Virus record (IMG/VR): IMGVR_UViG_3300013307_000042
Span: 1-29,814 of that record
Reading direction: 5' to 3' (one strand)
DNA from: a virus
DNA length: 29,814 bases
Part shown: piece by piece, positions 1 to 16,705 of the stretch
How the letters are laid out: each line of letters starts with the position of its first letter
Numbering within the stretch: position 1 is the stretch's first letter
Notes under the pieces: generated by a model
The model's input: only the letters and a program-made list of their open reading frames with translations
Database searches by the model: none
Told to the model about the DNA's origin: nothing
Position numbers and translations under genes: made by a program

Positions 1-1
1 C

Positions 2-70
2 GATGATGCTTCTTGCAAGGCGTATCAGTGCACCTGTCCGGTCTTCACCTATAAGAATGAGAAAAAGTAG
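2..70 (+). CDS. C-terminal end of a Cys-rich protein (partial)
   Basis: The reading frame is open from the left edge of the window and stops at TAG 68-70, giving 22 visible residues ending in KNEKK. It contains C-x5-C-x-C-x2-F (CKAYQCTCPVF), which matches the second half of the Cys/His motif repeated in the next two genes (C-x-C-x2-F). The next gene starts at the very next base, so the two are almost certainly co-transcribed and translationally coupled. The function is unknown; zinc binding is inferred from the motif only. The N-terminus lies outside the window. Confidence 0.6.
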   Translation, partial: DDASCKAYQCTCPVFTYKNEKK

Positions 71-760
71 ATGGAACCTCTGTGTGAATGCGGTCACTCG
101 AGCTCTCAGCATGTTAACGACCATCCTCCGATTTGTCTGATGTTGGGATGTGAGTGTAAGGGGTTCAAACCCAAGTCGATTGATCAGATCGAGGAAGAGT
201 TGAAGATTCCTTGTGAATGCAAGCATCCAGTTCTTGAGCACGTTCTCGGTCATGGAGTATGTACTCATTCACTGTGTCTGTGTACTCGGTATCGAGCGAA
301 TCAGTATCTTAAGGCCGAACCAGCTCCTTCGAAGACCTTTACGGAGACCGTAAACCCTCGATGTAAGTGTGGTCACTCCCGGGGGTCTCACGCAAGTGTT
401 TCTTCGGGCGACTGGTGTCTCATGGCTGGTTGCGACTGTATGTGTTTCGTGGAGAAAGTCGGCATGACTGCTAAAGAAAAGGATCCACTGATGGAAAACA
501 TGGAAGCTCTGGCTGGTATTGCAGACGATCAGGACCCTCCCGGAACTATTCGTGATGAATTCTCGGAGGAGGTCGACTGGGCAGCTGTCTCGCATTTCTT
601 CAACATGCTTATGGCGAAGAACGAGTACGATTCCGACATTGAGGTGACAGTGAAGGTTCCAGACCTCGGCGTTCAGTTGACAGTGACACTTCCGCATGAT
701 CGTAAGGATCAATTCATGAAGTCTCTGGCGCTGTATAATGCGAGAGTGGAGAAGCTGTGA
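71..760 (+). CDS. Protein with three Cys/His zinc-finger-like repeats
   Basis: A 229-residue protein with ATG directly after the stop of the previous gene. The N-terminal half holds three copies of a motif of the form CxC(G/K)H-x4-H-x(7-10)-C-x(3-4)-C-x-C-x2-[FY], starting near residues 5, 48 and 98 (CECGHSSSQH, CECKHPVLEH, CKCGHSRGSH). Each repeat offers enough Cys and His ligands to hold one or two metal ions. The C-terminal half is acidic, has no Cys cluster and contains a beta-rich stretch (DIEVTVKVPDLGVQLTVTL). Zinc binding is inference from ligand spacing; the partner (DNA, RNA or protein) cannot be told. It sits with a one-repeat relative downstream and a partial relative upstream, suggesting a duplicated family. 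It overlaps the next gene by 4 nt (GTGA). Confidence 0.85.
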   Translation: MEPLCECGHSSSQHVNDHPPICLMLGCECKGFKPKSIDQIEEELKIPCECKHPVLEHVLGHGVCTHSLCLCTRYRANQYLKAEPAPSKTFTETVNPRCKCGHSRGSHASVSSGDWCLMAGCDCMCFVEKVGMTAKEKDPLMENMEALAGIADDQDPPGTIRDEFSEEVDWAAVSHFFNMLMAKNEYDSDIEVTVKVPDLGVQLTVTLPHDRKDQFMKSLALYNARVEKL

Positions 761-1134
761 CTGATGGAAGTTATTTCACCTGTGCACGATGTGGTCATGA
801 CTCTCGGATGCATATTGAGGGTGCAAGGAAGTGTTCATGCGGATGTGAAGGATTTGTGAGATCGTTTGAGCTCTCTGTTGATGACCTTCCATCTAATAAA
901 GCTCCTGAAATTGACCCCACCCTTCTGAAAGAGGCCCTTTACGGTTTCCAGATGCTTGCTGCGAACATGGAGAATTGGTCATACGTCTCGACGAACGCGG
1001 AGTATTTGGACAAGAAGCAGGTGGCGGATTCTCTGGAACAGATTCTTTCTCAGCTGAAACCTTTGGTTCTTCTGCTGAGAGATCACATCGAGATTGAGGC
1101 GTTGACGAGATTGGATCCGTTTGATTTGCTATGA
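757..1134 (+). CDS. Small protein with one Cys/His zinc-finger-like repeat
   Basis: A 125-residue protein whose GTG start overlaps the upstream TGA (GTGA), indicating translational coupling. The N-terminus has one copy of the same Cys/His module as the previous gene: C-x2-CGH-x4-H, then KCSCGCEGF (residues ~9-32). The rest is helical, with a hydrophobic leucine-rich segment near the C-terminus (SQLKPLVLLLRDHIEIEAL), and may be an oligomerisation helix. No enzyme motif is visible. The shared module with its neighbours suggests paralogues diverged by tandem duplication. The function is not known. Confidence 0.82.
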   Translation: MTDGSYFTCARCGHDSRMHIEGARKCSCGCEGFVRSFELSVDDLPSNKAPEIDPTLLKEALYGFQMLAANMENWSYVSTNAEYLDKKQVADSLEQILSQLKPLVLLLRDHIEIEALTRLDPFDLL

Positions 1135-1439
1135 CCGGTAAGGATATGTCAGATCGGATTTCAAATGTACCTGTGGTTATGTCGGACCAAGGAGGCCCTG
1201 AACGAATTATTGGTGCTGCCGATATGAATTACGAGACTGGTGAGGTCACTCTTCATATTGGAATAGACACCATGGCGGTTCTTCAGGGCTCCTTTGGTTC
1301 GAAAATACATTATCTGGGTCTCTATATATTTGGAGGGAATGAGTCAGATCTTCCTATCGAGGTGAGGGAATCTGCATGGACGACCATGATGGAACGCAAA
1401 GAGATATTCGAACGGACTACTAAGGAAGAGAAAAATTGA
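1131..1439 (+). CDS. Hypothetical protein, 102 aa
   Basis: A short soluble protein in an ATGA overlap with the gene before it and with its stop overlapping the next start. It is accepted as real because of this tight coupling on both sides. It has no recognisable motif. Residues ~30-65 look beta-rich (AADMNYETGEVTLHIGIDTM), followed by an amphipathic, charged C-terminal helix ending EIFERTTKEEKN. I do not recognise the family. It is most likely an accessory protein made together with the zinc-finger-like proteins. Confidence 0.72.
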   Translation: MTGKDMSDRISNVPVVMSDQGGPERIIGAADMNYETGEVTLHIGIDTMAVLQGSFGSKIHYLGLYIFGGNESDLPIEVRESAWTTMMERKEIFERTTKEEKN

Positions 1440-1804
1440 TGAAGGAACACTTTAAGAAGCACAAGACGGCGTATCTGATCGCTGGAGCTGCGGTTGGTGG
1501 TGCTGTTCTGGGCGTGGTGGGGTATTTGATCCTCACCAAGAATGGACAGTTGGTGATCAACGAGTCCTTTCAGATGAAGCTCATTGATCGATCGGTACAT
1601 AACAACACGGTCATCACGGAGCTTGTGCGTCAGGGACATCCTGGGAACAAGGTTCGATGTGTCGAAACGGGCGTGGTTTATCCTTCGCAGAATGTTGCGG
1701 CTAAGGCAACTGGAGTGAATCCGGGGAATCTGTCCAATCACCTTAGCGGTCGTCAGGGATCTGTTGGTGGGTTGCACTTTGAGAACCTTGGCGAAATGAT
1801 GTGA
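1439..1804 (+). CDS. Membrane-anchored NUMOD1-like DNA-binding protein
   Basis: A 121-residue protein. The ATG at 1439 (TGATG overlap with the upstream stop) is preferred over the in-frame TTG at 1436; AAGGAAGAG lies just upstream. A basic start (MKEHFKKHKT) precedes one clear membrane segment (residues ~11-32, glycine/alanine/valine-rich). The C-terminal ~50 residues match the NUMOD1-type helix-turn-helix repeat found in phage homing endonucleases: V-R-C-V-E-T-G-V-V-Y-P-S-Q, then AAKATGVNPGNLSNHLSGR. There is no nuclease domain. The combination of membrane anchor and NUMOD1 motif is unusual. It could tether DNA at the membrane or be a remnant of a homing nuclease. The next HNH-type gene carries a related C-terminal repeat, so the two may share origin. 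Confidence 0.8.
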   Translation: MKEHFKKHKTAYLIAGAAVGGAVLGVVGYLILTKNGQLVINESFQMKLIDRSVHNNTVITELVRQGHPGNKVRCVETGVVYPSQNVAAKATGVNPGNLSNHLSGRQGSVGGLHFENLGEMM

Positions 1805-1827
1805 TTCGCAGTAATTACACGCCCTAT

Positions 1828-1947
1828 AATGAGGAGAACTCCTGGACGCTCTGTTTAAGAGTATCTGGCCCTAGCGACGCCCTGTCTAAGGGTATCCGCG
1901 CTGATGCGACACCCTGTTAAGGGTATCCATCGGGAGTTCTCCTCATT
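1828..1947 (+). ncRNA. Predicted multibranched structured RNA with three repeated hairpins
   Basis: This lies between two genes and has no ORF. Positions 1828-1842 and 1933-1947 form a perfect 15-bp inverted repeat, extendable to ~18 bp with two G-U pairs. Enclosed are three near-identical units (about 1844-1866, 1874-1897, 1906-1928). Each can fold as GA / 2x2 internal loop / 4-bp stem / short loop. The stems are CTCT-AGAG in unit 1 (1849-1852 with 1858-1861) and CCCT-AGGG in units 2 and 3, a compensatory base-pair change. Loops are GTTTA, GTCTA and GTTA, and each unit ends TATC. A T-rich run follows at 1951-1961, directly before the ribosome site of the next gene, so it could be an attenuator or a processed RNA. 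A TATAAT at 1825-1830 lacks a good -35. Confidence 0.6.
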
Positions 1948-1970
1948 CTCTTTATTTTTTTGGAGATTGA

Positions 1971-2474
1971 ATGAGTAAGACTGACACTGAGACGTGGGTT
2001 CCAGTTGATGGATTCCCACTATACGCCGTCTCGGATCAGGGACGAGTGATGAACGTTAAGTTCAACAGAATCGTGGAAGGTTATGTAAGAGAGGATGGGA
2101 ATCGGTATGTCTCTATTGCGAACGATACTGAGCGTCGGGTAGTTCCCATTCATGTTCTTGTGGCTGAGAACTTCTCCCTGGGTTTTGTGAATCGCAAGAG
2201 GCGACAGGTCGTTCGAAGAAAGGATGGAGACCCGGAAAACAACAGTTTTCAGAATCTTTCTTACAAGAACAATCGAGTTGTGCAGAGGGATATTCCGCCG
2301 CATGAGTCCTTGAAACGTAGGTATATTGAGATCGTAGAAACGGGTGAAAGATTCCTTACGGTCTTTGATGTGGCAGAGCATTTGGGCGTGGCTGTACCGT
2401 CGATTTACCGGGTGTTGAATGGACATCGACCCCATATTGGTGGGAGAAAACTGAAGTACGTGTGGGATTCCTGA
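1971..2474 (+). CDS. NUMOD4/HNH homing-endonuclease-like protein, catalytic His missing
   Basis: A 167-residue protein with ATG preceded by TTTGGAGATTGA. Domain order: NUMOD4 (residues ~9-27, WVPVDGFPLYAVSDQGRVMN), an HNH-like core (His61 in PIHVLVAENF, then RRKDGD at 82-87 and NNSFQNLSY), and a C-terminal NUMOD1-type repeat (YIEIVETGERFLTVFDVAEHLG ending near YRVLNGH). In active relatives the second block usually reads (N/D)H-x-DG; here His is replaced by Arg83, while the Asn of the last block is kept. That suggests a nuclease-dead or altered DNA-binding protein, though another His could substitute. Genes of this kind are typically mobile. It stands alone between a structured element and a strong terminator, consistent with an inserted 'moron'-like unit. 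Confidence 0.83.
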   Translation: MSKTDTETWVPVDGFPLYAVSDQGRVMNVKFNRIVEGYVREDGNRYVSIANDTERRVVPIHVLVAENFSLGFVNRKRRQVVRRKDGDPENNSFQNLSYKNNRVVQRDIPPHESLKRRYIEIVETGERFLTVFDVAEHLGVAVPSIYRVLNGHRPHIGGRKLKYVWDS

Positions 2475-2477
2475 ACG

Positions 2478-2516
2478 AAAAGAGAGTGGTTGAAAAGCCC
2501 CAATCACTCTCTTTTT
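2478..2516 (+). terminator. Rho-independent terminator
   Basis: Positions 2478-2492 and 2501-2515 form a 15-bp stem (one G-U pair) around an 8-nt loop, followed by a T-run. The stem begins AAAAGAGAGTG and ends CACTCTCTTTT, so it also works as a terminator in the opposite direction. It lies just after the HNH-like gene and closes that transcript. Confidence 0.9.
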
Positions 2517-2935
2517 GGATTGTTTTTTAGACAATTCACAGGAAACTCCCAGGTTTCTCGGAGGTGTTTTTGAAATTCATTTTCTGCCACTCGCACTAAT
2601 AAATGATCCAAAATCGGCGTTTTTTGGATTGTTTTTTCTGGGTTCATTTGGTCTTCGGAAGTGAAATGAACCCAGAAAAAACAATCCAAAAATGGCCCGA
2701 TTTGGATTGTTTTTTCATGCGAGTGGCAGAATCTGAAAAATCGAACTTTTGAAAAGTACCCCATTTTACCCCGGAAAATCAAGGCTTTGGATTGTTTTTT
2801 CATGCGAGTGGCAGAATCTGAACCTATTTTAAACTTCTGAAAAGTTTTGATGTTTTTATATAGCGTTTTGACAAATATTTTCAGCGAGTTGGAACTACGT
2901 TCATTTTTTGCCACTCGCACTAAAAAACAATCCAA
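2515..2935. repeat. AT-rich non-coding block of mixed-orientation repeats
   Basis: No gene is supported between 2475 and 3040. The block contains a 37-nt repeat: two identical direct copies (2701-2737 and 2786-2822) and two diverged inverted copies (2576-2612 and 2900-2935). All share the core GCGAGTGGCA. Its left part, TTGGATTGTTTTTT, recurs alone at 2515-2528 and 2624-2637, and inverted inside the right arm of the palindrome at 2621-2692. Outer copies face inner copies, so 2576-2612/2701-2737 and 2786-2822/2900-2935 can each fold back. Candidate roles are a replication origin or protein-binding array, stacked terminators, or a transposon-like remnant. Composition is visibly more AT-rich than the flanking genes. 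Confidence 0.85.
2621..2692. repeat. Perfect 29-bp inverted repeat (long hairpin)
   Basis: Arms 2621-2649 and 2664-2692 are perfectly complementary over 29 bp with a 14-nt spacer (2650-2663). Each arm contains a T6 or A6 tract, so transcripts from either side would give a hairpin with U-rich sequence. It shares its outer 14 bases with the neighbouring 37-nt repeats. It could be a bidirectional terminator or a cruciform-forming origin element. Confidence 0.9.
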
Positions 2936-2968
2936 GCGCCCAATTTTATGGGTCGCATCCGTTACAAG

Positions 2969-2977
2969 TGCTATAAT
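2969..2977 (+). promoter_or_regulatory. Extended -10 promoter for the nuclease/polymerase operon
   Basis: TG-C-TATAAT at 2969-2977 is a perfect extended -10 element; the predicted start is near 2984. The -35 region (about 2949-2954, TGGGTC) is poor, which is normal for extended -10 promoters. It lies at the end of the repeat block and ~65 nt before the start of the VRR-NUC gene, so it most likely drives genes from 3041 onward. It would use host RNA polymerase with the main sigma factor. Confidence 0.7.
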
Positions 2978-3040
2978 GAATAGAATAAGACTTTTTCAAA
3001 ACGTCTTGGTTCTGTTTTTGTTTCTTGAAAGGAGACACCT

Positions 3041-3334
3041 ATGCTTGAAAGCGCGTATCAAGCATCTCTCGTCAAGAAGCTCGAGGGGCTCTTTAACGGT
3101 TGTGTGATCATGAAGAACGATCCGAACTATCGTCAGGGCTTCCCCGACCTTCTTGTTTTGTTCAACGATCGCTGGGCTTGTCTGGAAGTGAAGGCTTCCT
3201 TCGATGCGCCCGTTCGTCCAAACCAGGAACATTGGGTTGACCGTCTTCGACTGATGTCATTCGGCGCCTTCATTTTCCCTGAGAATGAGCGAGAGGTTCT
3301 TTCCGCACTGAAAGACCACTTCGGAGTCCTCTGA
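3041..3334 (+). CDS. VRR-NUC domain nuclease (PD-(D/E)XK, Holliday-junction resolvase type)
   Basis: A 97-residue protein, the usual size for stand-alone phage VRR-NUC proteins. ATG follows GAAAGGAGACACCT, a strong ribosome site. The catalytic pattern is visible: GFPDLLVLF with Asp36, then CLEVKAS with Glu49 and Lys51, and the family's RPNQ-x2-W motif just after. VRR-NUC proteins cleave branched or flap DNA; here a role in recombination, replication or resolving packaging substrates is likely (inference). It heads the operon that continues with a Cas4-like nuclease and the polymerase-like protein. Confidence 0.9.
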   Translation: MLESAYQASLVKKLEGLFNGCVIMKNDPNYRQGFPDLLVLFNDRWACLEVKASFDAPVRPNQEHWVDRLRLMSFGAFIFPENEREVLSALKDHFGVL

Positions 3335-3360
3335 GTGACTCTGCCCGAGGAGATAAATTG

Positions 3361-3396
3361 ATGAACGATATTTGGGATCACGTCATTGCGATTTGA
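3361..3396 (+). CDS. 11-codon mini-ORF overlapping the Cas4-like gene
   Basis: ATG 3361 has a strong ribosome site (GAGGAG, 8 nt upstream) yet encodes only MNDIWDHVIAI before TGA 3394-3396. It overlaps the next gene's TTG start (3386) by 11 nt in another frame. Either it is a leader peptide that couples translation, or it is the true N-terminus of the next protein separated by a +1 shift. Joining at ATT|CGA would give MNDIWDHVI followed by RFDYHPEL. I cannot decide between these by reading. Confidence 0.45.
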   Translation: MNDIWDHVIAI

Positions 3397-3967
3397 TTAC
3401 CATCCTGAACTTGCGGGTAAGCACGCCTTCCTCTCACCGAGTAACTATTCGTGGATTCGGTATGAAGATGATAAGATGCTCGATCGCTTGGACACGTCCA
3501 TGGATGCTGCACTAGGTACTCGACTTCATGAGGTCGCTAAAGAACTCATCGAGTTGGGTATCAACCTTCCTGATGATGGAAGAACGCTAAGTCTGTACGT
3601 GAACGACGCGATTGGATTTCGTATGTCGCCTGAGGTTTCTCTCATGGCGTCGTATAATGCCTTCGGCACTGCGGATGCCATATCCTTCCGCAAAGAGCGT
3701 CCTACTGATGAACGCTTGACGTTGCGCATCCATGACTTGAAGACAGGTAAGAATACAGCTAAATTTGATCAGCTGGAAATCTACGCCGCTTTCTTCTGTC
3801 TGGAATATCAGCAGCAACCCAACGACATTGACATCGAACTTCGTCTGTACCAGAATGATGGTATTCGTGTCTATGAGCCTGATCGTGGTGATATCATGAT
3901 GATCATGGCAAAAACTCGTCACTTCGACGAACTTATCAATAACCGCCGTCTCGAGGCTCTTGGGTAA
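3386..3967 (+). CDS. Cas4/RecB-like PD-(D/E)XK exonuclease
   Basis: About 193 residues from a TTG start. The start is weakly supported because the good ribosome site belongs to the overlapping mini-ORF at 3361. RecB-family motifs are in order: GTRLHEVAKEL (motif I region, ~residues 44-54), FGTADAI (Asp97), HDLKTGK (Asp117, Lys119) and QLEIYAAFF (the Q-x3-Y motif of RecB/Cas4 nucleases). No Fe-S cysteine cluster like that of true Cas4 is seen, so 'Cas4-like' describes the fold only. It probably resects DNA ends for phage recombination or replication. It sits between VRR-NUC and the polymerase-like gene in one operon; no CRISPR array or Cas1/2 is near. Confidence 0.87.
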   Translation: MRFDYHPELAGKHAFLSPSNYSWIRYEDDKMLDRLDTSMDAALGTRLHEVAKELIELGINLPDDGRTLSLYVNDAIGFRMSPEVSLMASYNAFGTADAISFRKERPTDERLTLRIHDLKTGKNTAKFDQLEIYAAFFCLEYQQQPNDIDIELRLYQNDGIRVYEPDRGDIMMIMAKTRHFDELINNRRLEALG

Positions 3968-3999
3968 TTTAGCAAGAGTCGCTTGAACAAAGGGGAACA

Positions 4000-6783
4000 A
4001 TGGAAACCGAGTTCGAACTCGATATCTTTGACCGTCTGATGGCTGAGAAGCTGGGTGAATCCGAGCTTGCTCACTATGGAATTCTTCGAAAGAGTGGACG
4101 TTATCCTTGGGGATCTGGTGAGAACGCATATCAGCGTAACCAGACTTTCCTTCAGTACGTGGATCAGCTTCAGAAGTCGGGCATGTCCGAAGCAGAGATT
4201 GCTAAGGGTCTGTTCGGTGAGAAGGGATCTTCGTCGGATATTCGTGCACTGAAGGCGATTGCCAAATCTCAGAATCGTGAGCAGGATATTCAGACTGCCA
4301 TGAAGCTTCGTGAGAAGGGCATGTCTAACGTTGCCATCGGTAAGCAGATGGGTATTGCGGAATCTCAGGTTCGTTCGATCCTGAATCCTTCTCTGAAGGA
4401 ACGTAATGATACCCTCGTGAACACGGCCAACGAACTCAAGCGTATGCTCGGAGACGATGGTTATTTGGACGTCGGTAAGGGTACGGAGAATCATCTCCAG
4501 ATCGCCGAATCCAAGAAGAAGGTCGCTATCCGCATGTTGGAGGAAGAAGGCTATAAAGTCTACTACGTCCCTGTGGATCAGCTCGGTACCGGAAAGAAGA
4601 CCAACACCATGGTCCTCGCCCCTCCGGGATCAACCTTCCCTGAGATCATGAAGAACCAGGACAAGATTAAGTCCGTGACTTCATGGTCCGAGGATGGCGG
4701 TCGTACGTGGGAGAAGCAGAAGCCTCCTGTTCATGTGGACCTTTCTCGTGTCGGCGTTCGTTACGCTGAAGAGGGCGGCGCCAAGATGGATGGTGTCATT
4801 CAGCTTCGTCGCGGTGTCGATGATATCTCTCTCGGTGGCGCACAGTATGCGCAGGTTCGTATCGGTGTGAATGGTACGCACTATCTGAAGGGTATGGCGA
4901 TGTACGCCGACAACCTTCCCGATGGTGTGGACATGATGTTCAACACGAATAAGTCTCGTACGGGTAACAAGCTCGACGCTATGAAGGAAATCAAGAAGTC
5001 CAAGGAAACCGGCGAGGTTGACGAGGTTCTTCCCTTTGGTTCCATTGTGCGTCAGCGTATGTACACGGGCAAGGATGGTAAGCAGCACCAGTCTCCGATC
5101 AATATCGTCGGTAACGAAGGTAAGATCTCTGGTGAAGAAGGTGGATGGAACGAGTGGGGTAAGACTCTCTCTTCTCAGATGCTTTCTAAGCAGCCTCCTG
5201 CCCTGGCACGTAAGCAGCTTGGTCTGACCTACGATTCGAAGAAGGCCGAGTTCGATGAGATCATGGCTCTGTCAAATCCCGCTGTCAAGAAGCAGCTCCT
5301 CAAGGAGTTCAGTGATGGCGCCGATTCGGCAGCTAAGCATCTCAAGGCGCAGGGTCTTCCTCGTACGCGTAATCAGGTTATTCTTCCGATCAACTCGCTG
5401 AAGGATCATGAGATCTACGCCCCGAACTATCGGGATGGAGAGACGGTGGTTCTCGTGCGTCACCCCCACGGTGGTATCTTCGAGATCCCTGAACTCGTGG
5501 TGAATAACCGTAACCGCGAGGCAAACCGTGTCATCAAGAACGCAAAAGACGCTGTTGGTATTAATGCTAACGTGGCTGCTCGTCTATCTGGAGCTGATTT
5601 CGATGGGGACACCGTTCTCGTCATTCCAAACAATCATCGCCAGGTAAAGACAAAGATGCCGCTCTCTGGGCTTAAGAACTTCGATCCCCAGGCAAGATAT
5701 AAAATGCCTGAAGGTCAGAAGAATGGTCTTACGCCTAAGGGTAAGCAGAAGCAGATGGGCGACATCTCGAATCTCATTACGGACATGACCGTTAAGGGTG
5801 CGACCGATACTGAGATTGCGCGAGCTGTTCGCCATTCGATGGTGGTGATTGATGCTGAGAAGCACAACCTCAACTATCGTCAGTCTGCTGCTGATAACAA
5901 CATCGCCGAACTCAAGCGCAAATATCAGATGAAGCCGGATGGTAAGGCTGGTGGTGCAGCTACTCTGATCTCTCGTGCCAAGTCTACGAAGTATGTGGAT
6001 GAGCGCAAGGATAGGGCAGCTAAGGATGGTGGTCCTTGGGACGCCGCTACTGGACGTAAGATGTATACACCTACGGGTGCAGAATATCAGAAGTCCAGCA
6101 TCAACCAGCGTACTGGTGTGGTCACGACCAAGACCGTTCGTAAGACGACTCGATCTACTCAGATGGATGAAGCTCACGATGCACGCAGTCTGATCTCTGA
6201 CAAGAACACCCTTATCGAGAATGTTTATGCAGAGCACGCTAACAAGATGAAGTCCCTCGCTAACGCAGCACGCAAGGAGTACCTTGCTACTAAGCCCAGC
6301 CTCTACAAAGAGTCGGCTAGGAAGGCGTATGCTAAGGAAGTGGCAGACTTGAATGCTAAGCTTAGTGTTGCTCAAATGAACGCCCCCCGCGAACGACAGG
6401 CACAGTTGCTTGCTAACACCATGGTGAAGGCAAGGCTGCAGGCGAACCCGGGTCTCGATAAGGACGAGGTCAAGAAGATCAAGGGTCTTTCACTGACAGA
6501 TGCTCGTGCTAGAGTTGGCGCAAAGAAGGAAGTCATTACGTTCACACAGCGTGAATGGGATGCCATCCAGGCCGGCGCTATCACCATGAACAAACTCACC
6601 GCCATCCTGCAGAATGCTAACATGGATCAGGTAAGAGAGCTGGCTACACCACGTAAGGAACGTGAGGTCAAGCCTGCTCAGATTGCTCGAGCTAAAGCGC
6701 TGCTTGCTAATGGTTATACACAATCAGAAGTTGCTGACATGGTTGGGCTTTCGCCCTCCACTCTGTCTAGTGCACTGGGCTAA
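4000..6783 (+). CDS. Putative single-chain two-barrel RNA polymerase (YonO-like), with capsid-tag N-terminus
   Basis: A 927-residue protein; ATG follows AAAGGGGAACA. Residues 528-537 read RLSGADFDGD, matching the metal-binding DFDGD signature of the beta' subunit of cellular RNA polymerase, QDE-1 and YonO. Upstream, residues ~292-318 (HYLKGMAMYADNLPDGVD) resemble the beta-subunit barrel (KGV..I.P..DMP...G.PVDI), with Lys297 at the place of a catalytic lysine. A beta-like barrel followed by a beta'-like barrel in one chain is the layout of single-chain polymerases. Helix-turn-helix segments lie at ~60-130 and at the extreme C-terminus (AKALLANGYTQSEVADMVGL). Residues ~23-36 (ELAHYGILRKSGRYPWGSG) match the LAHYG tag on small head proteins. 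The family is widespread in phages but, to my knowledge, not functionally assigned; polymerase activity is inference from motifs. Confidence 0.75.
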   Translation: METEFELDIFDRLMAEKLGESELAHYGILRKSGRYPWGSGENAYQRNQTFLQYVDQLQKSGMSEAEIAKGLFGEKGSSSDIRALKAIAKSQNREQDIQTAMKLREKGMSNVAIGKQMGIAESQVRSILNPSLKERNDTLVNTANELKRMLGDDGYLDVGKGTENHLQIAESKKKVAIRMLEEEGYKVYYVPVDQLGTGKKTNTMVLAPPGSTFPEIMKNQDKIKSVTSWSEDGGRTWEKQKPPVHVDLSRVGVRYAEEGGAKMDGVIQLRRGVDDISLGGAQYAQVRIGVNGTHYLKGMAMYADNLPDGVDMMFNTNKSRTGNKLDAMKEIKKSKETGEVDEVLPFGSIVRQRMYTGKDGKQHQSPINIVGNEGKISGEEGGWNEWGKTLSSQMLSKQPPALARKQLGLTYDSKKAEFDEIMALSNPAVKKQLLKEFSDGADSAAKHLKAQGLPRTRNQVILPINSLKDHEIYAPNYRDGETVVLVRHPHGGIFEIPELVVNNRNREANRVIKNAKDAVGINANVAARLSGADFDGDTVLVIPNNHRQVKTKMPLSGLKNFDPQARYKMPEGQKNGLTPKGKQKQMGDISNLITDMTVKGATDTEIARAVRHSMVVIDAEKHNLNYRQSAADNNIAELKRKYQMKPDGKAGGAATLISRAKSTKYVDERKDRAAKDGGPWDAATGRKMYTPTGAEYQKSSINQRTGVVTTKTVRKTTRSTQMDEAHDARSLISDKNTLIENVYAEHANKMKSLANAARKEYLATKPSLYKESARKAYAKEVADLNAKLSVAQMNAPRERQAQLLANTMVKARLQANPGLDKDEVKKIKGLSLTDARARVGAKKEVITFTQREWDAIQAGAITMNKLTAILQNANMDQVRELATPRKEREVKPAQIARAKALLANGYTQSEVADMVGLSPSTLSSALG

Positions 6784-6797
6784 GAGAAAGGATAGAC

Positions 6798-7067
6798 ATG
6801 GATCCTGAAGATGTGATGCTCACAACGATCGACAATCCTTGGAATCCTTTCACCCATTACGATGAATGGCTAGCCTTTGACGAGGCCCAGGGTTACTATA
6901 CCAACGGCCTCCTGGCCAGGGTGGCAGTGTCGAGTGATGAACTTTCAAGTTTCGATCAGGAACTCGAACTTTCTCGAGCAATCAATGAAATTGTTAAAGA
7001 AAATGTTTCTGGAATGCATCAGAAAGTCTACCAAGACACTGTTGTTATTCCAAAAATAATTTCTTGA
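6798..7067 (+). CDS. Small acidic partner protein of the polymerase-like protein
   Basis: An 89-residue acidic protein with ATG after GAGAAAGGATAGAC, 14 nt behind the polymerase-like gene. It contains MLTTIDNPWNPFTHYDEW near the start, then LARVAVSSDELSS and an acidic C-terminal helix (RAINEIVKENVSGMHQKVY). I recall small proteins with this TIDNPxNPF...W block next to homologues of the large protein in other Gram-positive phages, so a conserved two-gene unit is likely. The charge and size would suit an accessory subunit or regulator, but no function is shown. Confidence 0.8.
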   Translation: MDPEDVMLTTIDNPWNPFTHYDEWLAFDEAQGYYTNGLLARVAVSSDELSSFDQELELSRAINEIVKENVSGMHQKVYQDTVVIPKIIS

Positions 7068-7072
7068 AGGAG

Positions 7073-7106
7073 GGGGGAGGGGGTCTCGCAAAAGGCCCCC
7101 ACCCCC
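7073..7106 (+). terminator. Strong GC hairpin, possible terminator
   Basis: Two blocks of five G (7073-7077 and 7079-7083) pair with two blocks of five C (7096-7100 and 7102-7106), separated by an A-A mismatch, around a 12-nt loop. No T-run follows, so it may slow or process transcripts, or protect the 3' end of the upstream mRNA, rather than be a classical terminator. It ends the polymerase operon and precedes the tRNA genes. The 7107-7244 stretch shows no ORF and no clear promoter. Confidence 0.55.
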
Positions 7107-7244
7107 TGCATCGCTCAGCTCCCTAAAATTCCCCCGGAGGGACAAAAATCTGAGACAATCCAGGTTTAAACCCTAAGGGAAGTCGGTGGAACTGATGGTG
7201 AAACCTTCACAAGCCCTGTCGATCTGACAAAAACTTTTCGACGA

Positions 7245-7318
7245 TGACTTCTAGCACAACCGGCAGTTGCGCCTGGCTCTGGACCAGGAGGTTCCAGGTT
7301 CGAATCCTGGGAGGTCAG
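7245..7318 (+). tRNA. tRNA-Gln (anticodon CUG)
   Basis: Acceptor TGACTTC pairs with GAGGTCA (one G-U). The anticodon stem CCTGG/CCAGG encloses loop CTCTGGA, giving anticodon CTG (reads CAG). The T arm is CCAGG-TTCGAAT-CCTGG, and the variable loop is 5 nt. The D stem is short (GCA/TGC). CCA is not encoded and must be added. The weak first pair U1-A72 and discriminator G fit glutamine tRNA. Confidence 0.92.
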
Positions 7319-7329
7319 CTCTACAACAC

Positions 7330-7407
7330 GGCGTCATGGCACAGCGGCGACTGCGCCTGACTGTAAATCAGGTATCCCACACGGAGGTTCGAGTCCTCCT
7401 GGCGCCA
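7330..7407 (+). tRNA. tRNA-Tyr (anticodon GUA)
   Basis: Acceptor GGCGTCA pairs with TGGCGCC (one G-U), discriminator A. The anticodon stem CCTGA/TCAGG encloses loop CTGTAAA, giving anticodon GTA (Tyr). The T arm is GGAGG-TTCGAGT-CCTCC. The variable region is about 10 nt (TATCCCACAC), enlarged as in bacterial tRNA-Tyr but shorter than usual. CCA is not encoded. It lies 11 nt after tRNA-Gln, so both are probably one transcript. Confidence 0.92.
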
Positions 7408-7458
7408 CTCAATTAGTACATCGAACACTGCCGATAATTTTTGGCCGGTTGGAGCATC

Positions 7459-7815
7459 ATGACGAGTTATAAGAACCTTCCGATCATCTCTCGTGATGGG
7501 GTTCCGACCAAGGTTGTTGCTCAGGCGCCTGGTCAGATCTACATCAACACTCTTGATGGTTCGGTGTATCGAGCAAAGAAGACTGAGTCCGGTTGGGACT
7601 GGGTTCCTCTCGCTGAAGGCGGCGGTTCTTCGGGACCTGTCACTCCTCCAGTGATCGTGACCGGAGGAGTTCCGGCAGACATCCCTGCCTCTGAGGCTAA
7701 GGATGGTTACTTCTATTATTTCTTGGGGACTGACGAGCTCTATCTTTGTCGGGTCCTCATTCCCGGATCGGTCAATTGGCGCCTCCTTCGTGAAGTCGCT
7801 GCTGACCCAACGTAA
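7459..7815 (+). CDS. Small beta-rich protein, likely virion or fibre associated
   Basis: 118 residues from ATG 7459 (TTGGAG 5 nt upstream); the longer in-frame TTG at 7441 is less likely. It contains two similar halves separated by a GGGSSGPVTPP linker. Each half reads roughly G-x-x-Y/F ... (S/E)-(V/L)-Y ... W-x-(V/L): DGSVYRAKKTESGWDWVPL and DELYLCRVLIPGSVNWRLL. The same pattern closes the fibre-like protein at 12601 (YLYICVATNGWARVPL). It therefore probably belongs to a small beta-domain family used on phage surface proteins. It directly precedes the endolysin gene. No catalytic motif is seen. Confidence 0.75.
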   Translation: MTSYKNLPIISRDGVPTKVVAQAPGQIYINTLDGSVYRAKKTESGWDWVPLAEGGGSSGPVTPPVIVTGGVPADIPASEAKDGYFYYFLGTDELYLCRVLIPGSVNWRLLREVAADPT

Positions 7816-7836
7816 TCTTTAAGGAGGTGAGCACCC

Positions 7837-9801
7837 ATGGGATGGGACTACACAACTCGTAACGGACAGCGTGTCCAGGTAGACGTCGCAGCAGCATTCG
7901 ATCGAATGTCTAACTGGTTCCACGAGCAGACGGGCTACTGGCTACAGATCAACGATGGTGGCGGAACTCGCACTAACGCTGAGCAGTGGGACTTGTACAA
8001 CGCCTACCTCAATGGTGGTACGCTCGCAGCGAAGCCGCCGAACTCGCTGCATGAGGAAGACAATGCGCTCGGTCCTCGTGCACTCGACATCAGTGACACC
8101 GGCCCTGATGCTGGCGTGATGACGGCTGGGTCTTGGCGAGCCAACCTCCTCAAGAACAACGCTCCAAGCTTTGGCTTCTCGCCATCAGGTTATTACTTCA
8201 GTCAGCTCGAGCCTTGGCACTATGAATACCAGGGACCACTCAATGGTTCTGGTGGTGGCAACGGATTCGATCAGACTGTTCAGAACGAGCAGGCCTGGCT
8301 GATTTCTCGGGGTTACAATCTCGGTCCGACAGGTGCTGATGGTATCGCTGGTCCGATGTATCATGATGCCGTTGCTAAGTACCAGACTTTCCTTCGCTCT
8401 TATGGTTACACCGGAGACTCCGATGGTATCTGGGGTGCGGGAACTCAGGCTGCTCACGAGAAGTATTACAATGCTGTTCAGAACCCCATCGACACGGGAC
8501 TTCAGCAACAGCAGGCATTCCTTATTTCTCGTGGCTATGACCTTGGTCCTTCCGGTGCCGATGGTATCTGGGGTGCGAAGACTGAAGCAGCGATCAAGGC
8601 ATACCAGCAGTTCCTCAAGGATAATTGGGGATACACTGGTGATGTCGATGGTCAGTGGGGTCCTGGTACTCAGGAAGCCCATGCGAAATTCTACGCATCT
8701 CTCCAGAATCAGCCCGGCGCTGCTCCGGCATATCCGCTTCCTGCAGGATCGTACTTCGGTCCCGCTGGTGGGGATGCCAATAGTGTTTCCGGTTGGTACA
8801 GCCATTCCGAGGATCTCAAGGTCTGGCAGCAGCGCATGCGCGATCGCGGTTGGCCCATCACGGTTGACGGATTGTATGGTCCGAAGGATGCGTCGACTCC
8901 GCAGGGCAACACCTATGAGATCGCTCTCGCTTTCCAGCGGGAGAAGGGTCTCCAGGCTGACGGTCTGATTGGTAAGGAAACGTGGGACGCGGCATGGACA
9001 TCTCCTGTCACGCCTGCCGATCCAACCCCGGCCGAGCCTGGTAATGGTGGGACGACCACGCCTCCGACGAGTGCGGATGAGGAAGCTGCTTCGCCGAAGC
9101 TCATCACTCCGACTGCAGCCGACTTCCCCAAGTGGATTAAGTTCGACATTAACCTCGATCTTGAGGGTATTGCTCCGGACTGGAACCTGCAGATGAATGA
9201 GTACTACGGGGTTCCTTATAATCCCGTAGAAGCTCACATGCATTGGTGGGGAGCTCCCGGTCAGGCAGGTACTCATGATGGTAACGTCCAGCACCTGAAG
9301 ACCACCAAGGATGTTTCCGCTAACTTCGTTCTCTCTGAGAACCGGATTACTCTCATGGTGCCTCTGAACAAGAATGCACTGACGACCGGAAAGCGTAATC
9401 CTTACGCATGGAAGGTTGAGAACGATCCGACGCTGAGTGACCAGCAGTACAAGACGATGGGTTACCTCGTCTATATTGTTGAGAAGCTGAATCCGACGCT
9501 CTTGAATGAGCCTCTCCGACTCCACAAGGAATTCTACTCCACGAGTTGCTCGGAGATCGATCGTCCACGCGTACGTGCATATGCTGAGCAGTTCCGTACC
9601 GGTAAGTTGGACCCTGCAACTGGTCTTCCTCCGGTGGAGAACCCGAAGCCCACGGATCCAGAACCGACTGATGACATTGACAAACTCAAGGCGCAGTTGG
9701 CAGAGGCTACTGAAAAGCTCAAGCAGCTTTCTGACTTCCTTGGGAAGTTGCCCTCTGAATTCCGTGCGTTGGCGTCCGACATCGACGAGCTTCTGAAGTA
9801 A
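7837..9801 (+). CDS. Endolysin: M15-type peptidase, peptidoglycan-binding repeats and amidase-like domain
   Basis: A 654-residue protein with ATG after TAAGGAGGTGAGC. Residues ~1-140 look like an M15/VanY-type D-Ala-D-Ala peptidase: His72 (SLHEEDN), Asp84 (ALDIS) and EPWHYEY with His128. Residues ~150-390 hold peptidoglycan-binding-like repeats (DGIAG, DGIWG twice, DGQWG, DGLYG, DGLIG). Residues ~460-580 look like an amidase_2-type domain: AHMHWWG with His467/His469, VSANFVLSENRI, and HKEFYSTSC with His563 and Cys571, the usual positions of zinc ligands. A Pro-rich linker and a C-terminal coiled coil (~615-654) finish the protein. Two catalytic domains flanking wall-binding repeats is a large lysin design. 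There is no signal peptide, so export through the holin is expected. Confidence 0.88.
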   Translation: MGWDYTTRNGQRVQVDVAAAFDRMSNWFHEQTGYWLQINDGGGTRTNAEQWDLYNAYLNGGTLAAKPPNSLHEEDNALGPRALDISDTGPDAGVMTAGSWRANLLKNNAPSFGFSPSGYYFSQLEPWHYEYQGPLNGSGGGNGFDQTVQNEQAWLISRGYNLGPTGADGIAGPMYHDAVAKYQTFLRSYGYTGDSDGIWGAGTQAAHEKYYNAVQNPIDTGLQQQQAFLISRGYDLGPSGADGIWGAKTEAAIKAYQQFLKDNWGYTGDVDGQWGPGTQEAHAKFYASLQNQPGAAPAYPLPAGSYFGPAGGDANSVSGWYSHSEDLKVWQQRMRDRGWPITVDGLYGPKDASTPQGNTYEIALAFQREKGLQADGLIGKETWDAAWTSPVTPADPTPAEPGNGGTTTPPTSADEEAASPKLITPTAADFPKWIKFDINLDLEGIAPDWNLQMNEYYGVPYNPVEAHMHWWGAPGQAGTHDGNVQHLKTTKDVSANFVLSENRITLMVPLNKNALTTGKRNPYAWKVENDPTLSDQQYKTMGYLVYIVEKLNPTLLNEPLRLHKEFYSTSCSEIDRPRVRAYAEQFRTGKLDPATGLPPVENPKPTDPEPTDDIDKLKAQLAEATEKLKQLSDFLGKLPSEFRALASDIDELLK

Positions 9802-9809
9802 GGCATGCT

Positions 9810-10130
9810 GTGATCGCGGCATACTTTCACTTCACGTCTGCCGCAACAACCATCGACAGTTCGCCCGTTCCAAGTTTCTTTAACTTCGATTGGGCGGACG
9901 TCGGTGGTTGGTCGCTGTTTATTGGATTGTGTCTATTCATAGTAGTAGGTTCAGTTCGTGAATGGTGGGTTCCGGGTCGTACACATCGCCGAGTTGTTGA
10001 TTCAGCAGCTGAACAGTCTAGGACTCTCAGTCAGGCGATGGATGCACTTCGGGAACAGACTCAGGCAAATGAGATCACTAAGCATTTCTTCGAGAAGACC
10101 GTCCCCAAGCGAGGGGAGCCGCAAGAATGA
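9810..10130 (+). CDS. Holin-like membrane protein (one membrane segment, coiled coil)
   Basis: 106 residues from GTG 9810, 8 nt after the endolysin gene. One strong membrane segment (~30-50, GGWSLFIGLCLFIVVGSV) is followed by a charged, probably cytoplasmic helix with coiled-coil character (SAAEQSRTLSQAMDALREQTQ). This single-pass plus coiled-coil plan and the position next to the lysin fit a class III-like holin or a holin partner. It overlaps the next gene by 4 nt (ATGA). Assignment rests on topology and context, not on a family motif. Confidence 0.78.
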   Translation: MIAAYFHFTSAATTIDSSPVPSFFNFDWADVGGWSLFIGLCLFIVVGSVREWWVPGRTHRRVVDSAAEQSRTLSQAMDALREQTQANEITKHFFEKTVPKRGEPQE

Positions 10131-10324
10131 TCAAAATCTTCGGTCGACGTTATACCCCAAAAGTCGACCCGGATGAGCTAGATCGGCAAACGGCAGAAGC
10201 AAACGAGTTCCTTGAGAAAGAAGGACCCCGAATGCGCTCTGTCGCTCGCTGGCTTGAAAATCGCAAGGGACAGAACGGCCTTGGCGAGGATTTCGATATT
10301 ACCTTCTACCCCAGAGGAGTGTAA
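10127..10324 (+). CDS. Hypothetical 65-aa protein in lysis cassette
   Basis: A small charged protein starting in an ATGA overlap and ending one base before the next ATG. The sequence is basic at the start (MIKIFGRRY) and helical in the middle (DELDRQTAEANEFLEKEG), with no membrane segment. The tight coupling on both sides supports it being real. Its role is unknown; the position suggests a lysis accessory or regulator. Confidence 0.7.
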   Translation: MIKIFGRRYTPKVDPDELDRQTAEANEFLEKEGPRMRSVARWLENRKGQNGLGEDFDITFYPRGV

Positions 10325-10325
10325 C

Positions 10326-10760: not shown

Positions 10761-10765
10761 CGAAC

Positions 10766-10905: not shown

Positions 10906-10937
10906 CCCTTCAATTTTTGACGAGAAAGGATTGTCCA

Positions 10938-11273
10938 TTGACCGATGTTGACAACTTTCTCGCACACTATGGCGTGAAAGGCATGAAGTGGGGCGTTCGA
11001 ATCGCTTCCGACCTTCATGCATCATATCGTGCTGGTAAAACACCACAAGAACTTAAAGAGCGTGCTAAGAAAGAGAAGCAGCTCAAGGATCTCATTAATC
11101 AAGATCTTCATCCAGGTCGTACTTTCGTTAACGACATCATCAAAGAACATCAAGGTCAGTTGATTTCTGGTCTTGGTCTCGGCCTTTCAACTGCTGCTGG
11201 TGTTGCCTTTATGGCATGGAAACTTAAGAACCAGTTCAAGGGAATCTCGATTTCTCCGATTCCTCTTGGTTGA
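10938..11273 (+). CDS. FLAHYG-tagged small protein with C-terminal hydrophobic segment
   Basis: 111 residues from TTG 10938 (AAAGGA 7 nt upstream). The N-terminus is DVDNFLAHYGVKGMKWGVR, the tag shared with four other proteins here. It continues with a basic helix (ELKERAKKEKQLKDLINQDL), HPGRTFVNDIIKEHQGQ and a hydrophobic, Gly/Ala-rich segment (~85-103). Residues ~50-103 align with the second tagged protein at 13496 (KEKRVKELIQEDLSPGKTF), so the two are paralogues. Proteins with the HYGxKGMKWG motif are common in head modules of Gram-positive phages without a proven role. Presence in the virion is inferred from the shared tag and location. The hydrophobic segment suggests membrane contact on injection. 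Confidence 0.85.
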   Translation: MTDVDNFLAHYGVKGMKWGVRIASDLHASYRAGKTPQELKERAKKEKQLKDLINQDLHPGRTFVNDIIKEHQGQLISGLGLGLSTAAGVAFMAWKLKNQFKGISISPIPLG

Positions 11274-12101: not shown

Positions 12102-12112
12102 AAGGAGTTGAT

Positions 12113-12601: not shown

Positions 12602-13482
12602 TGGGAAAAGAACTAGTCACCAATATCAAGGGTGAAACGGGACCCCAAGGTCCCCCTGCGATTCCCTTTAAGTTTACCAATCTTGCCGACATCCAGAATG
12701 CTAAATCGGGACTTGTCAATCTAGTTCCCACAGAGACAATGATTCCCGCACTTCCGACTCAGGTTTTGGGATTCATTCAGCCTGATCAAGATCGTCCTGG
12801 AATTCTTTCAGTTCAGGATTACTCCTCACAGGGATTCCCTGGAGCTACCGTCTTTGAAGTAACTTTCGAACGTGGGGGAATTCTTCTCGTCGGTACAGTT
12901 TATAAGGGGTTCCCTCAGGGAATGGTTCCTGATCCTGCTTGGACATTTAGAGATTCTGGGTTGCCGTTCGTTTCCATCCCCGACATGGTTCCAGTCTCAA
13001 CGGGTATTAATGAATGGAATAATCTACAGGTAAGTGCTTCGGCACTTATCAATTCCGTGATGAAGCGTGATGGTGCTGGTAGATCTCAGGTAACCACGCC
13101 TTCCGGAACTCTCGACATCACCAATAAGAAGTTCGTCGATGATTACTTCATCAATCGGGCCCCTTTCGCTCCTTCTGCAGGAGCCAACAAGTATCTGAGT
13201 GTCACGTCCAATGCGGCTTGGCAGCAGATTCTTGTCGACACGGTTAATTCCGCGAACTCTGTGGTCCAGCGCAAGGCTGGTGGTCAGGTCGATGTAGCTC
13301 TTACGCCCTCGGCAATTACCGATGCAGCAAGTAAGAATTACGTTGACACGGGTGGTTGGGTTACAGCTCCCGCTACAGCGAGTTCTCCCGGAACCAAGGG
13401 CCAGAAGGCTTTTGATACCTCCTATCTCTACATCTGCGTGGCTACCAATGGGTGGGCTCGCGTTCCACTCACTGTTTGGTAA
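12601..13482 (+). CDS. Fibre-like virion protein with collagen-type start
   Basis: 293 residues. A short collagen-like run (GETGPQGPP) lies at ~11-19. Two fibre-type repeats follow around 140-180 and 215-250 (INSVMKRDGAGRSQV, ITNKKFVDDYF; NSVVQRKAGGQVDV, ASKNYVDT), as in trimeric phage fibres. The C-terminal ~40 residues (SPGTKGQKAF, LYICVATNGWARVPLTVW) form a small beta domain also found twice in the protein at 7459. It is probably a trimeric head or neck fibre since it is encoded in the head module, but tail attachment cannot be excluded. It starts at the last base of the connector gene. Confidence 0.8.
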   Translation: MGKELVTNIKGETGPQGPPAIPFKFTNLADIQNAKSGLVNLVPTETMIPALPTQVLGFIQPDQDRPGILSVQDYSSQGFPGATVFEVTFERGGILLVGTVYKGFPQGMVPDPAWTFRDSGLPFVSIPDMVPVSTGINEWNNLQVSASALINSVMKRDGAGRSQVTTPSGTLDITNKKFVDDYFINRAPFAPSAGANKYLSVTSNAAWQQILVDTVNSANSVVQRKAGGQVDVALTPSAITDAASKNYVDTGGWVTAPATASSPGTKGQKAFDTSYLYICVATNGWARVPLTVW

Positions 13483-13495
13483 GAAAGGACTCAAA

Positions 13496-13912
13496 ATGGC
13501 AGAAAACTCTACTGACCCTCTCGAGTCCTTTCTTGCTCACTACGGTGTGCGAGGGATGAAGTGGGGAGTTGTCAAGTCTCAGGTATCTAAACTGGGACCG
13601 CAGCGTTCTCGTAAGGAGCAGAATCTCCGAACTCAGCGTAAGGATCAGCTTAAGCGTCGTCGGACTCTCTCCGACAAGGACCTTAACAACATTCTCGATC
13701 GCATGAACAAGGAGAAGCGCGTTAAGGAGCTGATTCAGGAGGATCTTTCCCCGGGAAAGACTTTCATTAAGAGCACCTTGCGTAAGTCTGGAGCTCAGGT
13801 CGCCGGCGTCGTTGCAACGGGCGTTCTGATGTACGGAATTCGTGGCGCTCTCACTAAGAAGTGGGGTCTTGGCGACCTCGCATCAAACATTCCCAAGATC
13901 AAGGGAAAGTAA
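13496..13912 (+). CDS. FLAHYG-tagged small protein, paralogue of the one at 10938
   Basis: 138 residues from ATG 13496 (AAGAAAGGACTCAAAATGG). The tag LESFLAHYGVRGMKWGVV lies at ~9-26. A very basic segment follows (residues 32-65, many Arg/Lys), then LSDKDLNNILDRMNKEKRV, KELIQEDLSPGKTFIKSTL and a hydrophobic stretch (~105-122, AGVVATGVLMYGIRGAL). The last parts align with the protein at 10938. The basic region could bind DNA inside the head and the hydrophobic stretch could enter a membrane. No enzyme motif is seen. Confidence 0.87.
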   Translation: MAENSTDPLESFLAHYGVRGMKWGVVKSQVSKLGPQRSRKEQNLRTQRKDQLKRRRTLSDKDLNNILDRMNKEKRVKELIQEDLSPGKTFIKSTLRKSGAQVAGVVATGVLMYGIRGALTKKWGLGDLASNIPKIKGK

Positions 13913-15745: not shown

Positions 15746-16153
15746 ATGTCAAACGACGTTGATGATTTTCTTGCTCACTTTGGTATTCCTGGCATGAAGT
15801 GGGGCCGAAGGAATTCTTCGGTCTCAGTGGCTACTGATCGCCCACAACTTACTCCTGAACAAAAGCGTGAGCGAGCTAAGAAGATTGCGACTCTGACCGC
15901 CGCAGGAGCTCTTGGTGCATATTATGTGTACAAGAAGATCGATCGGAAACGAAAGATCAATGCGCTTAGCGCCAAGAACTTTGAAGAGGGTAAGAAAGCT
16001 GCTCAAGCACTGATCACGAGCGATTTCGGTAAGAATTACTTGAAGATTGCTAATGGCGGTGGAGCAGGTCCCTCTAACCTCATTAGGAACGTCGCGCCCG
16101 GCTATGCTTCTGGCATAGAGTTCCTTTCGAAGACTGCCAAGGCGAGTTTGTAA
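15746..16153 (+). CDS. FLAHFG-tagged small membrane-type protein
   Basis: 135 residues from ATG 15746 (GTAAGGGACGCC). The tag is DVDDFLAHFGIPGMKWGRR (~4-22). A hydrophobic segment (KIATLTAAGALGAYYVY, ~47-63) is followed by a basic stretch (KKIDRKRK) and a mixed C-terminus (GKKAAQALITSDFGKNYL). Apart from the tag, it does not clearly align with the other small tagged proteins. Its place directly after the terminase and before the portal suggests a head component. Membrane insertion after injection is a possibility only. Confidence 0.85.
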   Translation: MSNDVDDFLAHFGIPGMKWGRRNSSVSVATDRPQLTPEQKRERAKKIATLTAAGALGAYYVYKKIDRKRKINALSAKNFEEGKKAAQALITSDFGKNYLKIANGGGAGPSNLIRNVAPGYASGIEFLSKTAKASL

Positions 16154-16177: not shown

Positions 16178-16705
16178 ATGGATGTTGATGACTTCCTCGC
16201 TCATTACGGTACGAAGGGTATGAAGTGGGGAGTGACTCGAGCCAACGCTAAGGGTACATCTCAGCGTAGTCAGAAGATTCAGTCGGCTCGGAATCGACAG
16301 GAATCGAACGCTGCGAACGTTGCGAAAGCAAAATCTGATTTTAAATCGGCCAAGAAGACTTTCAATACCGATAAAGCCATTGCTGGAATGTCCAAGAACG
16401 GCAAGGAATTTGCTGTTGATTTGTTGTTCGGTAGTTCAGTCAAGCGTAAAGCTATGGCTGCGCCAGGTAATCGCTCACAGCAGTCCGATCGAGCTAATAA
16501 AATTGATGCTGCCCGCTCTCGTATTTCCGATAGCAAAAAGCGAGTTCTCGATGCTAAAGCCAGCCTTAAAGAGATGAAGGCTAAGCAGGATTCTGATAGT
16601 GCCGTTGCCGCTCAATTTAAGAGCGGAAAGGAATTTGCTGCCTGGTTTGCAGGTGGAGAACTTGGACAGCGGGCGTATTCTCGTAAGGCTGCTGCTTCCT
16701 CCTAA
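16178..16705 (+). CDS. FLAHYG-tagged, lysine/alanine-rich helical protein
   Basis: 175 residues from ATG 16178 (TTAGAAAGGTTC). The N-terminus is DVDDFLAHYGTKGMKWGVT. The rest is basic and strongly helical (AKSDFKSAKKTF, DAARSRISDSKKRVLDAK). It has two similar halves, each containing K-x(4)-G-K-E-F-A (MSKNGKEFAVDLLFG at ~70 and FKSGKEFAAWFAGG at ~148), which suggests an internal duplication. The composition resembles DNA-binding internal head proteins. It lies just before the portal gene. Confidence 0.86.
   Translation: MDVDDFLAHYGTKGMKWGVTRANAKGTSQRSQKIQSARNRQESNAANVAKAKSDFKSAKKTFNTDKAIAGMSKNGKEFAVDLLFGSSVKRKAMAAPGNRSQQSDRANKIDAARSRISDSKKRVLDAKASLKEMKAKQDSDSAVAAQFKSGKEFAAWFAGGELGQRAYSRKAAASS

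Follow-up and report, generated by a model that had tools for sequence, protein, structure and literature searches.

The window analysed here is a 29.8-kb virus record (IMG/VR record IMGVR_UViG_3300013307_000042, positions 1 to 29,814), and the gene at 4000..6783 encodes a protein that, judged from its sequence and predicted structure, is very probably an RNA polymerase (RNAP) built as a single chain around two double-psi barrels. The family to which it belongs is already annotated and is therefore not new as a polymerase. New here are a promoter-like motif, repeated ahead of the early genes of the phages that encode the family, and a conserved peptide near the N-terminus of the enzyme that is a candidate signal for packaging into the virion.

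The assignment as a polymerase was examined with an AlphaFold2 model of the whole chain (predicted local distance difference test (pLDDT) 84.4; predicted TM-score (pTM) 0.75). When this model was compared with the PDB using Foldseek, the top four matches, all with a probability of 1.00, were QDE-1 (E 3.1e-9), P74-26 gp62 (2.2e-7), P23-45 gp64 (4.8e-7) and maize RDR2 (8.7e-6), with the alignment to QDE-1 spanning nearly the full length of the protein; the large subunits of multisubunit RNAPs ranked below these single-chain enzymes (E ~0.01). A structural search of viral models returned phage proteins named RNA-dependent RNA polymerase (RdRP). Searches of the PDB by sequence only, with the protein, its profile or the catalytic segment, found no RNAP that stood out from noise; the P23-45 virion RNAP, 8h2n, appeared at E 0.55. 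At the profile level the protein is a full-length member of phrog_4291, labelled 'RNA-dependent RNA polymerase' (1245 bits, E=0, residues 19-926), and the YonO profile, phrog_8308, matched residues 463-597 (E 3.4e-5). Thus, the single-chain, two-barrel architecture that a sequence-only reading of the window had proposed by analogy with YonO was supported by both the fold search and the YonO profile.

Conservation was assessed in an alignment of 64 relatives taken from viral contigs and bacterial genome assemblies, with 41-78% identity to the query. The two elements on which the sequence-only reading had been built, RLSGADFDGD (residues 528-537) and an upstream lysine, K297 (within LKGMAMYADNLPDGVD), lie where it had placed them, 236 residues separating K297 from D533. 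No variation at all was seen at K297, G298 and S530-D537 (SGADFDGD), nor at Q285, K318 and the post-barrel residues S613, D618, K621 and H622. In the model DFDGD occupies the loop between strands 518-521 and 538-543, and so lies ahead of the last strand of the second barrel, the placement that mattered to the earlier proposal of a metal-binding role. The beta-like barrel of QDE-1, DPBB1, gives three invariant residues, Q736, K743 and K767 (PMC1750930), to which Q285, K297 and K318 would correspond in order. The helix-turn-helix (HTH) parts proposed for the two ends are also real, the C-terminal match being the stronger (PF02796, E 8e-10).

In a comparison with YonO, hhalign put DFDGD on DNDGD, MGDISNLIT on IGEYSNNIT and IDAEK on IDFAK, and so kept the motifs in register, but with a probability of only 6.7% (P-value 0.0055). 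Full-length homology was not found, the profile match being confined to residues 463-597, and tblastn with each of the two proteins listed different phages. The match to PF05183 (RdRP) was similarly weak (E 0.01; 15.0 bits, under the gathering cut-off of 23.8), and several relatives gave comparable weak matches over DFDGD and the helices that follow it. For P23-45 gp64 no relatives were obtained from which a profile could be built. By these tests the window RNAP belongs to a separate family of the two-barrel superfamily, outside both the YonO family and PF05183. It is, however, neither hidden nor lacking an assigned function, as had been claimed: phrog_4291 and proteins of Lactococcus P078, Streptomyces Bing and Gordonia Untouchable already bear the name 'RNA-dependent RNA polymerase', which looks like a carry-over from Pfam, and most SEA-PHAGES records of the family read 'helix-turn-helix DNA-binding protein'. 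We found no functional study of the phrog_4291 family in the literature. Two experimentally proven phage RNAPs are likewise misfiled: P23-45 gp64 (L248:10291-12141) is a 'head protein' in RefSeq and PHROGs (phrog_25317), and phrog_8308, the family of YonO (L169:21357-23876), is filed under 'unknown function'.

A repeat search of Microbacterium phage Count, the annotated phage closest to the window (RNAP 76.6% identical), returned 12 copies of a 31-mer, and at least 10 copies of a sister motif came from the same search of Lactococcus phage 1706. The lineage motif has the form TCGCA-N4-TTACA-N5-TATAATGA and is repeated ahead of early genes without a -35 box; the consensus of 58 sites is TCGCAnnaattACAcgcccTATAATGAgAc, with nothing conserved upstream. 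A position weight matrix (PWM) trained solely on the 12 Count sites was then scanned on other genomes and gave, on the plus and minus strands respectively, 7/0 hits in Streptomyces HotFries, 9/0 in Arthrobacter Argan, 11/0 in Gordonia Secretariat, 6/0 in Bifidobacterium BitterVaud1, 13/0 in Rhodococcus ReqiPoco6 and 2/0 in the window; shuffled sequences gave 0-0.8 hits per strand, and SPbeta and P23-45 had no sites. The sites were intergenic in three genomes (9/9, p 8e-13; 10/11, p 1.5e-11; 5/7, p 2e-5) and lay mostly ~30 nucleotides (nt) upstream of a start codon within the non-structural arm, preceding early rather than structural genes among the genomes examined. A TTGACA box 15-19 nt ahead of TATAAT reached at least 5 of 6 matches at 0/46 sites, and sigma-70-like sites were no commoner in positions 1-14000 of the window than in shuffles.

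The motif was also found to be confined to this lineage. A PWM built from phage 1706 ranked both window sites first and recovered many of the same actinophage sites, and a pooled PWM scored 125 hits on the coding strand of lineage loci and 1 on the opposite strand, with 0/0 across the 715 kb of control loci (YonO and P23-45); the unrelated Gordonia, Mycobacterium and Lactococcus phages examined likewise gave 0/0. The RNAP open reading frame (ORF) is preceded by a copy in 67/133 loci, at a distance of 0.8-2.0 kb (median 0.9 kb); the opposite strand yielded 0 such copies and shuffled sequences 1. In many Clostridial copies TATAAT is replaced by TTTTAT. When viral contigs were scanned blind with the exact pattern, 21 of the 22 contigs of at least 40 kb encoded the RNAP; the single contig with the motif and no detectable RNAP (L335, IMGVR_UViG_3300010885_029022) may be a fragment or an exception.

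The enzyme itself is probably carried in the virion. Residues 19-46 are predicted to be disordered (pLDDT <50), yet SGR[YF]PWGSG is kept in 63/64 relatives, and the tag to which it belongs, HYG..SGRYPWGSG (LAHYGILRKSGRYPWGSG), resembles a HYGVKGMKWGV / HYGxKGMKWG peptide close to the N-termini of head-region ORFs. Because it is disordered and nevertheless near-invariant, and similar in form to the peptides of head proteins, we read this tag as a candidate packaging signal. Of 66 lineage loci, 61 contained ORFs bearing such tags, and the 838 kb of control loci contained none. In the original GenBank record of phage 1706 (EU081845) the RNAP orthologue, orf75, is called a 'structural protein'; it was later renamed in RefSeq, and Rhodococcus ReqiPoco6 gp106 inherited the label. 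The same record labels orf7, which bears the tag LQHRGVIGMRWG, as structural, and lists 15 proteins of this kind, 11 called structural and four described as putative capsid, portal or tail proteins. The paper on phage 1706 reportedly described 15 structural proteins, identified by liquid chromatography-tandem mass spectrometry (LC-MS/MS). The position of the motif is also relevant, since an RNAP whose operon lies behind its own motif must have its first supply from elsewhere, which packaging would solve.

The peptide of the head region, HYG/HHG[VI][KL]G[MQ][KR]WG(VRRYQN.DGSLT), occurs near the N-terminus of several unrelated proteins, and was also seen in locus L250 (3969-8643) and in many prophage loci; one tagged ORF of the window aligns to parts of 13 PHROG families. 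A literature search on the tag peptides returned no relevant paper, and their function is apparently undescribed.

We propose that the protein would act as a single-chain DNA-dependent RNAP and as the core transcriptase of one phage lineage. The two double-psi barrels would form the active site, with DFDGD (533-537) holding catalytic Mg2+ ions and Q285, K297 and K318 of the upstream barrel holding substrate and product. The enzyme would read TCGCA-N4-TTACA-N5-TATAATGA at sites ~30 nt ahead of early genes and ahead of the RNAP operon, its terminal HTH parts probably standing in for a sigma factor. Packed into the virion through the N-terminal tag, it would enter the cell with the DNA and start early transcription independently of the host enzyme. 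Taken as a whole, a virion-packaged two-barrel RNAP that reads a lineage promoter is the account we find moderately probable. The wider claim, that an entire siphovirus lineage with hosts in Actinobacteria and Firmicutes injects a free-standing RNAP, packaged by a tag like other internal head proteins and firing a promoter that has no -35 box without sigma factor or host RNAP, we regard as evenly balanced.

Several observations weigh against this proposal. The TM-scores to solved two-barrel RNAPs are low (0.25-0.45). Each of the two predicted barrels appears in the model with six strands, but when the beta-like barrel was folded alone (244-398) it gave no significant RNAP match in the PDB; the best matches were p97, formate dehydrogenase and NarG (E 0.46-1.2), which contain double-psi barrels. 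The PWM from phage 1706 did not recover the BitterVaud1 sites. The motif and the RNAP share their ancestry with all core genes, and their co-occurrence is therefore no proof that the one is read by the other; because ancestry confounds the association, we infer rather than demonstrate that the RNAP is the reader. The TATAAT box is the -10 element of host sigma-A, and host RNAP might use the sites. The tags of the RNAP and of the structural proteins are alike, not identical, and the virion evidence is a database label, which reportedly came from mass spectrometry.

Two alternatives have to be weighed most seriously, neither of which we think likely. The motif may be read by host RNAP with sigma-A as a promoter of the extended -10 type, possibly helped by a phage activator, leaving the two-barrel enzyme to serve other promoters; TATAAT and the purine-rich start do resemble bacterial -10 elements, and the sites lie at a normal promoter distance from start codons. 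This explanation does not account for the lack of a -35 hexamer at the usual spacings, nor for the conserved TCGCA and TTACA, which have no sigma-70 counterpart and persist over two host phyla, nor for the many Clostridial members in which TATAAT is replaced while the rest of the motif is kept; the motif is, moreover, absent from the unrelated Gordonia, Mycobacterium and Lactococcus phages. We favour the RNAP as reader because these extra elements persist across host phyla without a sigma-70 counterpart, and because, with its DNA-binding ends, it is the one obvious conserved transcription enzyme of the lineage. It is also conceivable, to a similarly limited degree, that the enzyme is made after infection and transcribes middle or late genes, as a YonO-like polymerase that is never packaged. 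YonO, its nearest characterised relative by sequence profile, is induced, transcribes late genes and is essential (PMC5467207), and the RNAP gene of each phage has an exonuclease gene nearby and adjoins the late module, in the window through tRNAs and in SPbeta after yonO/yonK. Against such a role, the motif precedes early and not structural genes in the genomes examined, an enzyme that reads the motif copy before its own operon needs a first supply, and orf75 of phage 1706 carries the structural label.

Two further explanations have far less to recommend them. An RdRP that synthesises second strands on RNA templates, as annotated, could draw on QDE-1 being the closest PDB fold, solved with both RNA and DNA templates, and on the PHROGs and GenBank label; that label, however, echoes the name of PF05183, whose cut-off is not reached, the characterised phage relatives YonO and P23-45 gp64/gp96 transcribe DNA (PMC5467207, PMC10770324), and HTH DNA-binding parts together with a lineage-specific DNA promoter favour DNA templates, so that we consider RNA-templated synthesis very unlikely. 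More improbable still is a polymerase fold that has lost its catalytic activity and now serves as a structural protein of the virion or in DNA packaging. The label 'structural protein' given in phages 1706 and ReqiPoco6 could be taken that way, but a dead enzyme would not keep all the DFDGD aspartates and the upstream Q, K and K invariant in 64/64 sequences.

Among known systems, YonO of Bacillus phage SPbeta is a proven DNA-dependent RNAP that transcribes the late genes of that phage (PMC5467207). It shares with the window RNAP a single two-barrel chain of ~840-930 amino acids (aa), a metal motif in register (DFDGD/DNDGD), the MG.ISN.IT and ID..K motifs that follow, and a gene near an exonuclease and adjoining the late module. 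The full-length sequences do not find each other, however, and YonO, which gave no HTH match, carries a Cys4 motif at its C-terminus, in a phage without the lineage promoter. P23-45 gp64 and P74-26 gp62, whose structures match the window RNAP, are likewise single-chain two-barrel siphovirus RNAPs, of the non-virion kind, with their own promoters, and the P23-45 virion RNAP, gp96, transcribes pre-early genes from its own promoters (PMC10770324). Unlike the free-standing window RNAP, with its HTH ends and candidate packaging tag, gp96 forms one polypeptide with the tape measure protein and travels in the tail. We noticed no second RNAP in the window lineage, where no systematic search was made. 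QDE-1, the best whole-chain structural match, has the same order of Q, K and K before the aspartate triad; it is a eukaryotic RNAi enzyme of PF05183, under whose cut-off the window RNAP falls. As far as PMC10770324 and its references describe it, gp66 of the crAss-like phage phi14:2 is a single-chain two-barrel virion RNAP; it comes from a different phage group and was not among the best fold-search matches of the window RNAP.

Of the known relatives of the cellular enzyme, single-chain two-barrel RNAPs are the simplest, and characterised examples are few. The present family is found in 250 of 50,697 phage records (Arthrobacter 95, Gordonia 55, Streptomyces 54, Lactococcus 13, others), many of them phages isolated on laboratory hosts and mostly filed as HTH proteins. 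The promoter recognised by YonO was still undetermined in 2017 (PMC5467207); with a candidate cognate promoter conserved over two host phyla, sigma-free promoter recognition becomes directly testable. Should the RNAP prove to be packaged, the tag it shares with head proteins would be a transferable signal by which proteins are loaded into phage heads.

Table 1. Features of the window that bear on the predicted RNAP, its candidate promoters and the tagged head-region ORFs
Feature	Residues	Window position	Strand	Basis or remark
Candidate cognate promoter TTCGCAGTAATTACACGCCCTATAATGAGGA		1805..1835	+	PWM; intergenic
Candidate cognate promoter GTCGCATCCGTTACAAGTGCTATAATGAATA		2952..2982	+	PWM; precedes VRR-Nuc/exonuclease/RNAP operon
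Small endonuclease (phrog_93), first gene of RNAP operon		3041..3334	+	Orthologue in Count annotated VRR-Nuc
Cas4/RecB-like exonuclease (phrog_3953)		3386..3967	+	Profile match
Predicted single-chain two-barrel RNAP (phrog_4291)		4000..6783	+	ATG start, 927 aa
N-terminal tag of RNAP, HYG..SGRYPWGSG	23-40	4066..4119	+	Alignment, predicted disorder
N-terminal HTH region of RNAP	~85-130	4252..4389	+	Weaker HTH match
Beta-like double-psi barrel DPBB-B	251-370	4750..5109	+	Six predicted strands
Invariant residues in DPBB-B	Q285, K297, K318	4852, 4888, 4951	+	Alignment
Beta'-like double-psi barrel DPBB-A	457-543	5368..5628	+	Six predicted strands
Predicted catalytic metal motif D533-F-D-G-D537	533-537	5596..5610	+	Directly ahead of last barrel strand 538-543
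Conserved bridge-helix-like helices past barrel A (MGDISNLIT...HSMVVIDAEKH)	579-622	5734..5865	+	YonO register, within PF05183 match
C-terminal HTH of RNAP	890-923	6667..6768	+	PF02796 E 8e-10
89-aa protein (phrog_4303)		6798..7067	+	Profile match
Head-region ORF, tag FLAHYGVKGMKWGV		10917..11273	+	Tag at 10944
Head-region ORF, tag FLAHYGVRGMKWGV		13322..13912	+	Tag at 13517
Head-region ORF, tag variant FLAHFGIPGMKWGR		15746..16153	+	Tag at 15755
Head-region ORF, tag FLAHYGTKGMKWGV		16178..16705	+	Tag at 16181

The RNAP gene stands in a series that runs from a VRR-Nuc-type nuclease (3041) through a Cas4-like exonuclease (3386) and the RNAP (4000) to a gene for an 89-aa protein (6798), past which the window has two tRNAs and then lysis, terminase, portal and capsid genes. 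The linear genome of Count has this series at its right end and the start of the late genes at its left end, so that the window spans the position of Count's genome end. The exonuclease gene is directly upstream of the RNAP in 145/147 testable loci, and the gene for the 89-aa protein, possibly a small RNAP subunit or specificity factor, is directly downstream in 104/115. Both also occur in 250 records each, with genus counts identical to those of the RNAP. This co-occurrence was considered as a functional link and rejected: a capsid-protease fusion gene marks the same phage groups, which makes the pattern a signature of the lineage, and within one lineage with a common backbone co-occurrence alone tells little about partnership. 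No plasmid was found to carry the RNAP gene.

Two minor observations concern the surroundings of this operon and the DNA-binding parts of its product. AT-rich repeats (TTTGGATTGTTTTTT, ATGCGAGTGGCAGAATCTGAA) cluster immediately ahead of the RNAP operon promoter, at 2489-2935 of the window (compare L251:29208-29485), and are possibly a replication origin or control region; Count has other repeats at the equivalent position. A small separate HTH protein (G021:8998-9210) resembles the HTH regions of the RNAP (E 3.2e-7), as does protein A0A5B8WIH5 of Arthrobacter phage Qui by fold (TM 0.73 to target); such small proteins may be free-standing copies of the DNA-binding part of the RNAP.

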